The position numbers and the translations under genes are program-made. Below the pieces are notes generated by a model. The model searched no databases, had not been told where the DNA came from, and saw only the letters and a program-made list of their open reading frames with translations. Positions 6,841 through 27,106 of a stretch of DNA of 38,578 nucleotides are shown piece after piece. The stretch covers positions 1-38,578 of IMG/VR virus record IMGVR_UViG_3300046005_001481. One strand, 5' to 3'. Source of the DNA: a virus. The stretch's first letter is position 1. The number at the start of each line of letters is the position of its first letter.

Positions 6841-7471
6841 GATTATAAATAGTCGGGTCAATCCATTTTTCCCCTTCCCAAAATTCAGCACCAGTAATTT
6901 CTAATTTGTAAGGAAAGTAATCCTGATATGATTCGTAAATGTATAAATAATTCTTATCTTGTGTCTTCCCGTAATTACTTAGTAGTAGTATAGAATCCTT
7001 CCCAAAAGAAAATTTTAATTCAGTATGAATAAATGCGGTTTCTAATCCCAACAACACATTTTCAAATTCTTTAAACCTCGTGTATGCCACGACAACATTA
7101 TCCAATTTGACTTTCATGATTTTTAAATCACTATGATTTGAATTATTATTATAATATTCCATAATATCAAATTTTTTCCATTTAAAATAATCCTGAAAGA
7201 ACAAATCAACATCTTCTTTGTTATCCACGTAAGGAATGATTTCTATCTCAAGTTGAGATAATAGTTTTTTTCTCTTATAGGATAAAACAACTTTTTCATT
7301 GTTGATTCTACAACTTTTAGCCTGATACCAATAAATAGGTGGTTGAATATTTGGTAGGAACCCTAATCCCAAAAGTTCTTCTTCTGTTTCTCCTTCAGGG
7401 ATTACAAACGCCTCGCAAAAAACTCTATCATCCTTAACGTGTCCGTGTAAATGGTCAAATATTATTTTCAT
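6833..7471 (-). CDS. Unknown protein, possibly GNAT-fold acyltransferase-like, 212 aa
   Basis: Not firmly recognised. After an N-terminal strand with two His (MKIIFDHLHGHV), residues 31-75 read GLGFLPNIQPPIYWYQAKSCRI followed by basic strands. That resembles the front part of arginyl/leucyl-transferase-like and GNAT proteins in which an aromatic-Arg motif precedes the acyl domain. The C-terminal part has alternating strands and an amphipathic helix. Catalytic residues cannot be named. It overlaps its neighbours by 17 and 8 nt inside the sugar-type operon, which suggests a transfer step in that pathway. Other folds remain possible. Confidence 0.55.
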   Translation of the reverse strand: MKIIFDHLHGHVKDDRVFCEAFVIPEGETEEELLGLGFLPNIQPPIYWYQAKSCRINNEKVVLSYKRKKLLSQLEIEIIPYVDNKEDVDLFFQDYFKWKKFDIMEYYNNNSNHSDLKIMKVKLDNVVVAYTRFKEFENVLLGLETAFIHTELKFSFGKDSILLLSNYGKTQDKNYLYIYESYQDYFPYKLEITGAEFWEGEKWIDPTIYNHD

Positions 7472-8168
7472 TCTTGTATTTTTCGTCTAACTTGTCGTAT
7501 TCCTCAGACCTATCTTTATTAGATTCACCTGATTCTAAGTCTGTGTGGTCATAATTAAATACATCGGTGTCAGGTGTAACCCATCTACCATTTCTTTCCG
7601 CCGTCCAAAGAGTGGTGTTGTATTTTCTATTGATTACAATTTCTTCTTTCACCGTAAAAGATGGGTCGTGCATTATTAAACGATTATTTGGTTGGATTGC
7701 GAAGTTTCCATTATCCATCTGAATGAAGTGTCCGCACTTATGTTGAGACGGGAATTCACTAAGTCCGAAGTCTGTATCACTCATATCATCAGAACTACCC
7801 CAATCTAAAGTGAACAAGTAACGTCCTGAATATTGTACTCTTCTTCTTGAAGTAAACTTGCAAGTTTTGTTTTTTAAAATCGGGAACGCTGTTACTCCAA
7901 CGTGATAAGTAAAGGAGTCCCATAAGACAAGCTCGTCTAATTCTTGTTGTGGAGCGTCTTCTTTCCAACAGAAAGCGTGTATGGGCATTCTCCACCAAAT
8001 TCCACCATCTTCCATCATAAAATGGAATAGTGGTGCCTGAGCAGGTATGGAAGACACACCAAAAATATAACATGGGAACTTTTTATCAAATGAATCTTCT
8101 TGATTTCTGAGGAAATTACCTCTGATGAAAGCTTCAACGATAGGTGTGGGCGTGTTTAAATAAGACAT
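7455..8168 (-). CDS. Unknown protein, 237 aa, in the sugar-type operon
   Basis: No family is recognised. The N-terminus (MSYLNTPTPIVEAFIRGNF) is helical. The middle is rich in aromatic residues and beta strands (FHFMMEDGGIWWRMPIHAFCW, about 48-68), suggesting a beta-sandwich or jelly-roll. The last 40 residues are highly charged and probably disordered. The start at 8168 was preferred over one at 8204, which would add an unlike hydrophobic stretch. It overlaps the next gene by 17 nt and lies 69 nt after the DegT-like gene. A cupin-type epimerase or binding protein is possible, but no metal ligands are obvious. Confidence 0.55.
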   Translation of the reverse strand: MSYLNTPTPIVEAFIRGNFLRNQEDSFDKKFPCYIFGVSSIPAQAPLFHFMMEDGGIWWRMPIHAFCWKEDAPQQELDELVLWDSFTYHVGVTAFPILKNKTCKFTSRRRVQYSGRYLFTLDWGSSDDMSDTDFGLSEFPSQHKCGHFIQMDNGNFAIQPNNRLIMHDPSFTVKEEIVINRKYNTTLWTAERNGRWVTPDTDVFNYDHTDLESGESNKDRSEEYDKLDEKYKNENNI

Positions 8169-8237
8169 AGTTTGGTTTTTTTGTTTAAATAAAATATAAA
8201 ACAAATTATCTGTTTTGTAAATTACCTAACCTTTTTT

Positions 8238-8849: not shown

Positions 8850-9480
8850 TGTCTCTAATGATTTTACAAGGTGAACCGTATGCAACCACGTTATCAGGAA
8901 TGTCCCTCGTTACTACAGAACCCGCACCTATTATGGTATTCTTACCTACCTTTATACCATCTATTATGTTTACCCCCATACCTATGGTTGTTCCTTCACC
9001 TATTATTACGTTTCCTGCGATGTTGGTACCAGGGTTAATGGAACAATAGTTACCGATGGTTGTGTGATGACCTATGGAAACATGTCTGTTGATTGTTACA
9101 AAATCACCTATCTTTGTATGTGCAGCTATTGAAACCTTTGAGTTAATTAACACTCCTCCACCGATGGTACTCATCTTAGATATGTCTAACCCATCATGGA
9201 TTACATTGATGAATTTGTTTTTAGTAAGTCCAAGTTCTTTAATCAGTTTAATTTTAAATTTGGGTTGGTAAACTCCGAGCATGAATATATCATACTCAAA
9301 TAGGTTAACCTCAGATAAAATTTCCACTTTAAAATCGTCATGATGAAATGAGTTGACTATTGGTAAATTTAAGTTGTTATGAACCGTGACTTTTGGTTTA
9401 AGATTATTTGAATACAGATTATCCAATATCATTGTTATGATATTATCTCCCTTACCTATTATTAATAATTTTATTTCCAT
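8839..9480 (-). CDS. NeuD/PglD-type sugar acetyl(acyl)transferase
   Basis: The 213-residue protein has the two-part plan of this family. An N-terminal Rossmann-like nucleotide-sugar domain (IKLLIIGKGDNII, residues 3-15) is followed from about residue 105 by a left-handed beta-helix of hexapeptide repeats, ending AYGSPCKII. A His pair (SIGHHTTIG, about 134-142) supplies the general base for acetyl-CoA-dependent N- or O-acylation. With the DegT-like gene next to it, the expected substrate is an amino-sugar on a nucleotide or lipid carrier. It overlaps the BKACE gene by 29 nt and the DegT gene by 11 nt, so stoichiometric expression is likely. Confidence 0.85.
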   Translation of the reverse strand: MEIKLLIIGKGDNIITMILDNLYSNNLKPKVTVHNNLNLPIVNSFHHDDFKVEILSEVNLFEYDIFMLGVYQPKFKIKLIKELGLTKNKFINVIHDGLDISKMSTIGGGVLINSKVSIAAHTKIGDFVTINRHVSIGHHTTIGNYCSINPGTNIAGNVIIGEGTTIGMGVNIIDGIKVGKNTIIGAGSVVTRDIPDNVVAYGSPCKIIRDNEA

Positions 9481-10279
9481 ATCCTTTTTGTCTTAATTCG
9501 TTTGAATTATAGTGAATAATCTCCAATTCTTCCATTATTCTATGAGCTCGTTTTAATAATTTTATATTTGTTGTCTTTTCCTTATCTTTGTAGTATAGGT
9601 TGTCTTCTAATCCGATTCTGATTCCATCAAAATCTAACAAGCCATATGTGGTACTCTTGAGTTGTTGGGAACCTATCCCACCCAAACAAGTATATGAGTT
9701 TGTTGGTAGATTAGATTTGATGGTTGATAAGGTGCTAAAATCACATTGTCCGTTGTACATGTTCCCTAATATGACATTAATGTGGTGTGGTGATTTTAAT
9801 ATTTTCTTTGAAATAAGGTAATTTGTATAGTTTAACATTCCCGTATCGAAACATTCTATTTCAGGTTGGACCCCGTACTTATCCATCTCTTGAATTAAAG
9901 AAAGTATCATATCAGGTTGATTGATGGATGCCCCTGATGGGAAGTTTAATGATGACATGGTTAGTGAACCCATATCAGGATGTAACTGTAATACCTCAGC
10001 TCTTTTCTCTAACTCAGGGAAGTTTCTTCCTGTTAGTGAAACACAAATCAATAGCTCAGGACAATATTTTTTTATCCCTTCTATAATCTTTTGATACACT
10101 TCTTTCTTGTAGGTGTTTTGTAATGTTTCCTCATCTTTCGCGTGTAAGTGCACAATTGAAATCCCCACTTCATTTGCATGATGAACTTCCTCTATTATTT
10201 CATTCGGTAATAATGGAGCAAACGAATTGTCCCTTGTGGTTTGTGTCCCCGTAGGTGTGAAATTAATTATTTTTTTCAT
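9452..10279 (-). CDS. BKACE family (DUF849) beta-keto acid cleavage enzyme
   Basis: The 275-residue protein matches the beta-keto acid cleavage enzyme family, which swaps acetyl-CoA with a beta-keto acid to give acetoacetate and a new acyl-CoA. Visible signatures are NFTPTGTQTTR near the N-terminus, SIVHLHAKDE (41-50) with the two His that bind the catalytic zinc, PEIECFDTGM (139-148), and LGGIGSQQ further on. The length fits the family (about 270-310). It is the second gene of the operon, between the glycosyltransferase and the acyltransferase genes. That suggests it supplies an unusual acyl-CoA for sugar acylation. This role is inferred; the family is rarely seen in phages as far as I know. 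Confidence 0.85.
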   Translation of the reverse strand: MKKIINFTPTGTQTTRDNSFAPLLPNEIIEEVHHANEVGISIVHLHAKDEETLQNTYKKEVYQKIIEGIKKYCPELLICVSLTGRNFPELEKRAEVLQLHPDMGSLTMSSLNFPSGASINQPDMILSLIQEMDKYGVQPEIECFDTGMLNYTNYLISKKILKSPHHINVILGNMYNGQCDFSTLSTIKSNLPTNSYTCLGGIGSQQLKSTTYGLLDFDGIRIGLEDNLYYKDKEKTTNIKLLKRAHRIMEELEIIHYNSNELRQKGYGNKIINNR

Positions 10280-23157: not shown

Positions 23158-23188
23158 CAAAGATAGTAAATTCAAATTATATATACAA
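23158..23188 (-). promoter_or_regulatory. Host-type promoter TTG-N20-TATCTTTG
   Basis: TTG (23186-23188) and TATCTTTG (23158-23165) on the minus strand. It directly abuts the terminator of the large RNA unit, so transcription restarts right after it ends. Confidence 0.65.
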
Positions 23189-23224
23189 ATAAAAAAACCC
23201 TAACTGTAAAAACAATTAGGGTTT
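23188..23224 (-). terminator. Terminator of the large non-coding RNA
   Basis: AAACCCTAA (23216-23224, complement) pairs with TTAGGGTTT (23195-23203, complement) over 9 bp, followed by a T-tract on the minus strand. No plus-strand T-tract exists, so it ends a minus-strand transcript. The only minus-strand unit upstream is the RNA island. Confidence 0.8.
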
Positions 23225-24285
23225 AGTGGCATTCAGGTTGAGAATACACCTTTCAATGAGAGACTTTACAGGAGATTATTTGTGTTCCTCCGATTTCCAC
23301 TTCCTTTTGAGAAGTACCTCTCAGTCACGGTCAATTAGATTAACCAATCCTTAAGTCGTAATATACTCTATTCTTACTTATCACTCTTCGAGGTTGCCAC
23401 CCCAATTAATCCTTGCGGGACTAGAGAACTTTCAAAACAATCGTATCGGGCTTGGGACCCTTTACGGCCATGAACAACTCATGACTAAGTAGTGACCTGT
23501 CTATCACGACTGACGAACACTTTTCCTTTTAGATTTTTAGTTTTCACATGAAAGTAAAAGTTTGATTTGTGGATGATAGATGTAGCGGTCCGTCAAACCA
23601 GCTGTCCCATCTTTTGAACGAGACAATACTGAACTACACCTTGAAGTCTCCCGACCTCCATATTTTAAGTCTACTTCATAACTCCTACCTTGGTAGGTCA
23701 AGAGTAAGGAGAACAACAGCACCACCTGTACGAACTCTTACCTTTCGGTTTTAAGTCTACTTTTATATTGAACTCCGCAATAGTATGGTCGGATAACCAT
23801 ATGTCTCACAACAGTTCTACGAGTTATTCTTATTGGAGTTCCCCCCTCAACCAAACGACCCACATCGCTTGGTTACCAAACCACTTTCTCTACAGTGTTA
23901 CCCTCGATACTAAAGGTTTGATAATATCCCGCTTGTCTACTCGAGCTCCCTTTCGGAAACCGCAACCCACTTCAATCAAGATGAGTCACTTTATACTGCT
24001 TTCACAGTTTATTTCATGGACTATAGACCGCCCAATTTCTTTCTATAAGTATGACGTTTGCTCGTATTCCCCGAAGGTTCAACTCACGGTTCTCTTATAG
24101 AAAAAATATTTTAATTCAAAGAACGCTTTCACTAAAGGGGGTTGATGTTACGATTGTTATCCCCGACAATCATGTTCACCTTTTAATTTCAAACCGTTGT
24201 GAACAAACACAGTTTTGAAATAAGAACTTGGAATTTCACAACCTTAACTTATCCGAAGATTAATCAGGTCAACCCTTCTCATTTG
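23225..24285 (-). ncRNA. Large structured non-coding RNA candidate (GOLLD/ROOL-like context)
   Basis: About 1.06 kb with no convincing ORF on either strand and more G+C than the flanking genes. It runs from a TTG-N20-TACCTTTG promoter (24291-24321) to an intrinsic terminator (23188-23224), both minus-strand. Helices visible on the minus strand include a 10-bp stem (23849-23858 with 23865-23874), which needs a G.U pair and would be A.C on the plus strand. Others are GAACTCC/GGAGTTC (23835-23841 with 23770-23776) closing a domain around TATGGT/ACCATA (23784-23801), GGTGTAG/CTACATC with a G.U (23634-23640 with 23579-23585), and GATTGT/ACAATC. GAAA tetraloops cap ACC/GGT near 23741 and TCC/GGGA near 23953, and a UUCG loop lies near 24257. 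The 12-mer GTAGACTTAAAA occurs twice. Family unassigned. Confidence 0.6.
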
Positions 24286-24290
24286 TTTCA

Positions 24291-24321
24291 CAAAGGTAGA
24301 TGAAAGTTTTGATACTATCAA
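24291..24321 (-). promoter_or_regulatory. Tandem host-type promoter 1 (TTG-N20-TACCTTTG)
   Basis: TTG (24319-24321) and TACCTTTG (24291-24298) on the minus strand. The box is followed by TGAAACAAAT, as at 24730. It is the promoter closest to the large RNA. Confidence 0.7.
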
Positions 24322-24427
24322 ATTTTTGTGAAGTTTTTTTTTAACAATCTTACTCTATTTTATACCGATAGTGAGATTTGTTTTCGGTGATTGTTAAAAA
24401 ACCTCTCGGTGTTACCCGTTTGGTTTA

Positions 24428-24458
24428 CAAAGATACAACTAATATTTTAATTAGTCAA
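24428..24458 (-). promoter_or_regulatory. Tandem host-type promoter 2 (TTG-N20-TATCTTTG)
   Basis: TTG (24456-24458) and TATCTTTG (24428-24435) on the minus strand, spacing 20 nt. It lies between the tRNA and promoter 1, so it adds to transcription of the large RNA. Confidence 0.7.
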
Positions 24459-24573: not shown

Positions 24574-24645
24574 TTGCGAGGGACAGAATTGAACTGCCGT
24601 GGACCTGGCTTATGAGACCGGTGGGTAACCAACAACCTCCTCGCG
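24574..24645 (-). tRNA. tRNA with CAT anticodon and C1xA72, initiator type (fMet)
   Basis: Reading the minus strand: acceptor CGCGAGG (24645-24639) pairs with CCTCGCA except for C1 x A72, the hallmark of bacterial initiator tRNA. The D-arm is short (GGT/ACC with TGTTGGTT loop). The anticodon loop is CTCATAA with anticodon CAT. The T-arm is GGCAG-TTCAATT-CTGTC, with the conserved G-T-T-C-A-A. The discriminator is A and no CCA is encoded. The anticodon stem (CCGGT with GCCAG) has one C.A mismatch and only two of the three G-C pairs typical of initiators. An elongator Met or lysidine Ile tRNA is the alternative, but C1 x A72 argues against both. Confidence 0.8.
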
Positions 24646-24729: not shown

Positions 24730-24760
24730 CAAAGATAGGAAAAAATTCTCATTCTATCAA
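24730..24760 (-). promoter_or_regulatory. Tandem host-type promoter 3 (TTG-N20-TATCTTTG)
   Basis: TTG (24758-24760) and TATCTTTG (24730-24737) on the minus strand, spacing 20 nt, followed by TGAAACAAAT. It is the promoter for the initiator tRNA. A further TATATTTG box without a good -33 element lies at 24891-24898. Confidence 0.7.
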
Positions 24761-24934
24761 ATCTTTTTTATTGTGAATTTTGGAGGTGTTTGTCCTTTCG
24801 GACATGAACATATAAATATATCCAATGTTTTCAAAGTATAATAAAAATTACACTTTTGTCAAGTTTTCACCCCTTTTTTGTTTTGTGAATACAAATATAC
24901 GATAAAAATTCAAATACTATTATGTTTTCTAAAG
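24761..24934. other. Intergenic stretch upstream of the RNA island
   Basis: No gene. It contains a minus-strand GAAA-capped hairpin TGTCC-GAAA-GGACA (24791-24804) and a TATATTTG box at about 24891-24898 reading towards the tRNA. It also holds a possible sigma70-like pair TTGACA/TATACT on the minus strand near 24838-24862. A minor RNA could be made here, but nothing firm is seen. Confidence 0.3.
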
Positions 24935-24941
24935 TATTTAT
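24935..24941 (+). promoter_or_regulatory. TATTTAT motif upstream of the DUF192 gene
   Basis: AGTATTTATTAATT precedes the ATG at 24947, which decided this start over one at 24878. Confidence 0.5.
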
Positions 24942-24946
24942 TAATT

Positions 24947-25300
24947 ATGAAGGTAAAAATTAATGACAATACTTTTAATGTTAAAACATTAGTTGATAGG
25001 GAGTCTCAATCAATTGGGATGATGGGTAAAACCTTTGACAACGACTTTAATGGTTTGTTGTTTTTAATGGGTGGAGATAAACAATGTTTTTGGATGAAAA
25101 ATTGTCTAATACCGTTAGACATAATTATTATAAAGAACAACGTGATTGTTAATATACATCACAATTGTCCTCCGTGTAATGACGAATTTGATTGTCCTTC
25201 TTATTGTGGGAACGGTAATATTGTGTTAGAGATTGAGGGTGGTTCTTGTGAAATCCTTAATATTGAAGCTGGCGATAGTATTACTTATGACCTATCTTAA
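24947..25300 (+). CDS. DUF192 family protein, 117 aa
   Basis: The family signature is present as FWMKNCLIPLDIIII (48-62), preceded by GMMGKTFDNDFNGLLFL (24-40), equivalent to the R-G-L-M-x-R and G-M-L-F-x-F parts of DUF192. The fold is a small beta-barrel; its biochemical role is not established. Unusually, a Cys-rich insertion (HHNCPPCNDEFDCPSYCGNG, 71-90) replaces the usual loop and could bind a metal. The usual N-terminal signal peptide of cellular DUF192 proteins is missing, so it stays in the cytoplasm or virion. It converges on the DHH gene with a 4-nt overlap. Confidence 0.8.
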   Translation: MKVKINDNTFNVKTLVDRESQSIGMMGKTFDNDFNGLLFLMGGDKQCFWMKNCLIPLDIIIIKNNVIVNIHHNCPPCNDEFDCPSYCGNGNIVLEIEGGSCEILNIEAGDSITYDLS

Positions 25301-26734: not shown

Positions 26735-27106
26735 TTATGATTTTAACGTAAGTAAGTATTTTAATTTGTTAACCGAAGCCAACATTTCATCTCTTAGATT
26801 TAATAAATCAGTATCATATTTAGTATCTAACTGTTCAGTCATTGACACTAAAAATTCAGTAATTCCATCTATAAAGTTTTGAACACTTAATGATTTTAAA
26901 TCTTGAAACATTATTGAAAATTCCGACTCAAATTCTGGTCTACCATATTTACCCATCATTGATTCTACAAAACTATCAATAAGGTCTCCTAAAGTGTCGT
27001 ATATTTCACCATAAGCTCTATGTTTAGCATCGCCCATTGTTTGCCAATGCATAAATTTAAACTGAGTTTGTATTTGTATTAGTTTTAAAATTAATTCTTC
27101 TTTCAT
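26735..27106 (-). CDS. Dps/ferritin-like protein (DUF5856 type), 123 aa
   Basis: A four-helix protein. Helix 1 has QTQFKFMHWQTMGDAKHRAY (14-32), with His20 and His29, and continues GEIYDTLGDLIDSFVESMMG, with Asp and Glu at heptad positions. This matches Dps-like H-W-x-T...H...Y...D...D-x-[FL]-x-E, where the dinuclear iron centre forms. It is the small phage-type relative DUF5856. Iron storage or DNA protection is the known role of the wider family; whether this one binds iron is not shown. It lies between a tagged peptide and the DHH gene in one operon. Confidence 0.75.
   Translation of the reverse strand: MKEELILKLIQIQTQFKFMHWQTMGDAKHRAYGEIYDTLGDLIDSFVESMMGKYGRPEFESEFSIMFQDLKSLSVQNFIDGITEFLVSMTEQLDTKYDTDLLNLRDEMLASVNKLKYLLTLKS

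Follow-up and report, generated by a model that had tools for sequence, protein, structure and literature searches.

We identified a GOLLD gene with a ribosomal RNA-like leader in a 38,578-base IMG/VR virus record, referred to here as the window, whose host is probably a member of the Bacteroidota. Most likely, this is a complete GOLLD gene of a Bacteroidota phage that is transcribed like rRNA with Nus-factor antitermination, its product probably being a cage. What is new here is the presence of boxA in the GOLLD leader of this virus and of nearly all of its relatives; a full-text literature search, which left subscription papers mostly outside its reach, found no published link between GOLLD and boxA. 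The boxA, together with the initiator character of the tRNA-Met that neighbors GOLLD in relatives, was overlooked in the original prediction for this locus, which had been made from the window sequence.

Analysis of the window by cmscan against Rfam revealed a match to GOLLD (RF02032) at 23641-23235 on the minus strand (332.2 bits, E = 1.1e-94). The match spans the full model (positions 1-416), includes a variable linker at ~23580-23515 and scores more than twice the RF02032 gathering score of 150 bits. Since RF02032 models the 3′ domain only, these positions correspond to the 3′ half of the RNA. The original prediction had read a large structured non-coding RNA on the minus strand, of the GOLLD/ROOL class or possibly of a new one, and had named a covariance-model search as its check; the reading as a GOLLD/ROOL-class RNA is supported because that search returned GOLLD. 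The ROOL model (RF03087) was absent among the gathering-threshold matches of the window; ROOL, like GOLLD, is a large phage or plasmid RNA, and it forms an RNA cage (PMC12286853). The GAAA and UUCG sequences described for the minus strand are indeed present there. The unit had also been described as free of open reading frames, and no convincing one was found: the longest is a 110-amino acid plus-strand frame (23768-24100, TTG start) that stays open in only 4/58 relatives, and we rejected it as a coding sequence.

Relatives were collected by five pattern scans of IMG/VR; in 260 loci the conserved RNA is seen up to its 5′ end, and both GOLLD domains are kept in ~260 loci at 65-100% identity. 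Six matches of the GOLLD pattern in genome contigs were discarded, as RF02032 had no match in those genomes and the sequences look like chance. In most loci the similarity to relatives starts at about window position 24042 and ends at about 23239, and thus the conserved RNA extends over ~24045-23235 on the minus strand (~810 nt), preceded by a variable leader upstream of 24046. The unit originally proposed, 23188-24321, therefore needs to be divided; its portion from 24045 to 23235 is the conserved RNA, whereas 24046-24321 is the variable leader, which holds the promoter and boxA.

The 5′ domain (23642-24045, minus strand, ~404 nt) lies outside the Rfam model, and its structure was examined using an alignment of the 5′ domains of 59 diverse loci (alignment A1). 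This analysis yielded 101 pairs in 21 helices, with 97.2% of cells paired. Changes on both sides were found in 80 pairs, compared with 54.0 ± 2.9 in shuffled alignments, and the covariation score was 0.554 compared with 0.226; 0/500 shuffles reached the observed compensatory-pair count or covariation score, a result that is not to be read as a probability because the aligned sequences are related. When partners were slid, pairing fell to 34-41%, a control that leans towards the 5′ domain structure because the structure came from the same alignment. Despite these caveats the covariation effect is large, and the window RNA has the separate structured domain of ~400 nt ahead of the 3′ domain that is characteristic of GOLLD. 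The structured RNA predicted for the minus strand is thus confirmed both by the GOLLD match (E = 1e-94) and by covariation far above that of shuffled alignments.

The window RNA shares its 3′ domain with GOLLD RF02032 across the whole model and is, like it, a phage gene. Compared with GOLLD env-38 (PMC12286853), it shows the same two-domain layout (~400 + 407 nt here, 420 + 413 nt in env-38) and a similar length (~810 nt and 833 nt, respectively), a likeness judged on layout and size only. Both RNAs lie downstream of a tRNA-Met-like gene. In contrast to env-38, the window RNA has a Bacteroidota-type promoter and a boxA in its leader, and its linker is without a tRNA.

The predicted transcription unit begins at a Bacteroidota-type promoter (TTTG-N20-TACCTTTG, 24291-24322, minus strand) and ends at an intrinsic terminator (23195-23224, minus strand) with a 13-bp stem, a 4-nt loop and a T-run, in agreement with the host-type promoter and terminator originally proposed. 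TAnnTTTG is the Bacteroidota promoter box. It is also found upstream of many of the Bacteroidia rrn leaders read, and of the distinct relative leaders that have a boxA, 156/166 carry it in the 140 nt preceding that element. Terminator-like hairpins are likewise conserved: 212/241 relatives have one no more than 140 nt from the RNA 3′ end, compared with 38/434 random stretches. A second candidate promoter box, TATCTTTG, was recognized by pattern between the tRNA-like gene and GOLLD (24428-24435, minus strand) and aligns in relatives; the same pattern is present upstream of the tRNA-like gene (24730-24737, minus strand). Between this last box and the tRNA-like gene is a hairpin followed by a T-run (CCCATAAG ... 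CTTATGGGG TTTTTT, 24729-24680, minus strand), which looks like an attenuator.

The boxA GTTCTTTGA is located in the predicted transcribed leader at 24116-24124 and is the sole minus-strand copy in the window. It is the most frequent 9-mer in 136 distinct 200-nt leaders, being present in 123/136 against a background of 0.0045 per 200 nt. In a larger set, GTTCTTT with G, A or T as the next base was found in 172/174 distinct relative leaders; 152/174 have the exact GTTCTTTGA, and the remainder have mostly GTTCTTTAA. GOLLD loci counted in this way are not mutually independent; after thinning, GTTCTTT[GA] was the majority form in 36/39 divergent GOLLD clusters. The positions flanking boxA carry ~0.3 bits on average, compared with 1.6 bits for two positions (G/A and A) that were not used in finding it. 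We also examined Bacteroidia rrn leaders, where GTTCTTTGA lies 81-155 nt before 16S in 23/26 cases when Mucilaginibacter, whose rrn leaders have GTTCTTTTAAG or similar in its place, is excluded. As in an rRNA-type unit, therefore, a host-type boxA follows the promoter within the leader, and the window shares with the Bacteroidia rrn leader the order of promoter, GTTCTTTGA and long untranslated structured RNA. It differs from a bacterial rRNA operon in that it is phage-borne and that the RNA is immediately followed by an intrinsic terminator. As a pattern in sequence, the link between boxA and GOLLD is well supported.

GOLLD loci of other hosts were examined for the corresponding element. The gamma-proteobacterial boxA consensus is GYTCTTTAANA (PMC5725501), and this form was identified upstream of GOLLD in three jumbo phages. 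In Xanthomonas phage X1, whose GOLLD sits in a tRNA array, GTTCTTTAAAA precedes the leading tRNA of that array by 18 nt; the genome has one further match. In Xanthomonas phage XacN1, GTTCTTTAACA heads a tmRNA-GOLLD-tRNA stretch, and the only other match is in the repeated copy of this region; at this locus (L356 7178-7597) the tmRNA (permuted tmRNA model, 123 bits) is situated between boxA and GOLLD. In Stenotrophomonas phage RAS14, GTTCTTTAACA is one of six genome matches and lies inside the tRNA/GOLLD region, at a distance of 3.5 kb upstream of GOLLD. The view that boxA follows the host type is supported but not proven by these data, because the phages are few, and two of them, RAS14 and XacN1, are related.

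The element is not a universal GOLLD trait. No boxA was found at four GOLLD loci, namely the two divergent loci L141 and L151, the locus of phage G147 and that of the Pseudomonas sp. FeN3W plasmid, nor was one found in the region scanned at the single ROOL locus examined, that of L. salivarius pMP118. Just upstream of the L151 GOLLD is a Pistol ribozyme (RF02679, 69.4 bits; 912-837, minus strand), which may set the 5′ end of that RNA. The FeN3W plasmid (CP136011, a 910-kb replicon) has two tandem GOLLD RNAs (L360 3999-4404 and 4860-5321), the linker of the latter holding a tRNA; the G147 GOLLD (L349 2441-2914) contains a tRNA-Gln within its linker and is followed by a tRNA gene array. Cellulophaga phage phi14:2 was considered on the basis of a 50-nt match to the L141 query stretch, and was rejected as no GOLLD above the cut-off was present in the stretch read.

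Like other GOLLD genes, which are encoded by phages or prophages and often lie near tRNA genes, the gene in this virus record has relatives with tRNA neighbors. In the 700 nt upstream of GOLLD, a tRNA-Met was detected in 66/228 loci, and any other tRNA in at most three. Among close relatives (80-95% GOLLD identity), 35/43 have an initiator-type tRNA-Met in the same orientation, no further than 700 nt upstream, the type being assigned by a C1/A72 non-pair rule, with D-stem GAGC/GCTC in the sequences listed. The adjacent tRNA claimed for the window itself stands only in part: ARAGORN called no tRNA in the window, whereas a tRNA-Met(CAU)-like stretch with a C1/A72 non-pair is present at 24574-24645 (minus strand), scoring 21.1 bits with the Rfam tRNA model, below the cut-off of 29. 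This divergent gene is initiator-like and possibly degenerate. A Met-tRNA neighborhood was already known, since GOLLD env-38 is also described as downstream of one (PMC12286853); new in this clade is the initiator character of the neighboring tRNA-Met.

Three other explanations were weighed against these data. That GTTCTTTGA is kept for RNA structure and not as boxA, either as a site of processing or as the opening paired segment of the GOLLD fold, would fit an almost invariant sequence close to the RNA 5′ end, merely 12-19 nt from the conserved start in some loci. We consider this unlikely: the distance from GTTCTTTGA to the RNA falls into a short class (-16 to -21) and a long one (-56 to -119), the sequence between GTTCTTTGA and the RNA is without conservation, the identical 9-mer precedes 16S rRNA, and the Xanthomonas and Stenotrophomonas phages have the gamma-proteobacterial form instead. 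The upstream same-strand tRNA of close relatives (35/43) raises the further thought that the initiator-type tRNA-Met is under selection, with GOLLD carried along as a passenger in a phage tRNA locus. This is very improbable, as no tRNA could be detected over 700 nt upstream in 162/228 loci, many loci that lack a tRNA altogether still keep GOLLD under constraint at the level of covariation, and both GOLLD domains and boxA persist in the window although its own tRNA is divergent.

The explanation we give the least credence, to the point of practically discounting it, is that the RNA is a new structured class apart from GOLLD and ROOL. The 5′ domain is without an Rfam match and the originally proposed unit exceeds the Rfam model in length, but the GOLLD match covers the full model and exceeds the gathering score more than twofold, contradicting the suggestion of a new class, and the size and two-domain layout match those published for GOLLD env-38 (residues 1-420 and 421-833; PMC12286853). 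It is near certain that the window RNA is a full-length GOLLD, a known giant phage RNA class.

Other genes in the window include metabolic or stress genes, namely those for a BKACE enzyme (9452-10279, minus strand; Pfam E = 2e-59), a ferredoxin-family PHROG (7455-8204, minus strand) and a PHROG annotated as a starvation-inducible transcriptional regulator (26735-27106, minus strand). A DUF192 protein is encoded divergently upstream of the tRNA/GOLLD unit (24878-25300, plus strand).

In rRNA operons, boxA recruits the Nus complex, which suppresses Rho termination and aids rRNA biogenesis (PMC10250234, PMC5725501), and the phage giant RNA is therefore most likely transcribed as if it were rRNA. 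In the mechanism we propose, host RNA polymerase would start at the Bacteroidota-type promoter (24322-24291) and produce a precursor of ~1.1 kb ending at the terminator (23195). The leader boxA would recruit NusB-NusE(S10) and partners, rendering RNA polymerase Rho-resistant and helping the long untranslated RNA to fold. The conserved 810-nt RNA would adopt the two-domain GOLLD fold, probably assembling into a multimeric GOLLD-type cage with a role in lytic infection, probably touching ribosomes or tRNAs. Cage assembly and function are extrapolated from another GOLLD, env-38, which forms an RNA-only 14-mer cage by cryo-EM; GOLLD has also been reported to bind ribosomes (PMC12286853). One GOLLD, in a Lactobacillus brevis prophage, was reported to be dispensable for phage production, as cited in PMC7567579. 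For Bacteroidota phages, and separately for Xanthomonadales jumbo phages, it is likely that GOLLD is made as an rRNA mimic, with a host-type boxA recruiting the host rRNA antitermination complex and thereby coupling the cage RNA to ribosome synthesis or diverting factors from it.

To our knowledge, GOLLD is a class for which cryo-EM structures exist but no function is known. The covarying 5′ domain alignment could extend the Rfam model, which now represents the 3′ half alone. A conserved host-type boxA indicates how cells could make such long untranslated RNAs, and it predicts which host factors would meet GOLLD: NusB, S10 and NusA/NusG. GOLLD expression and function therefore become testable by point mutations. 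Taken together, boxA and the adjoining initiator-type tRNA-Met point towards the host translation machinery.
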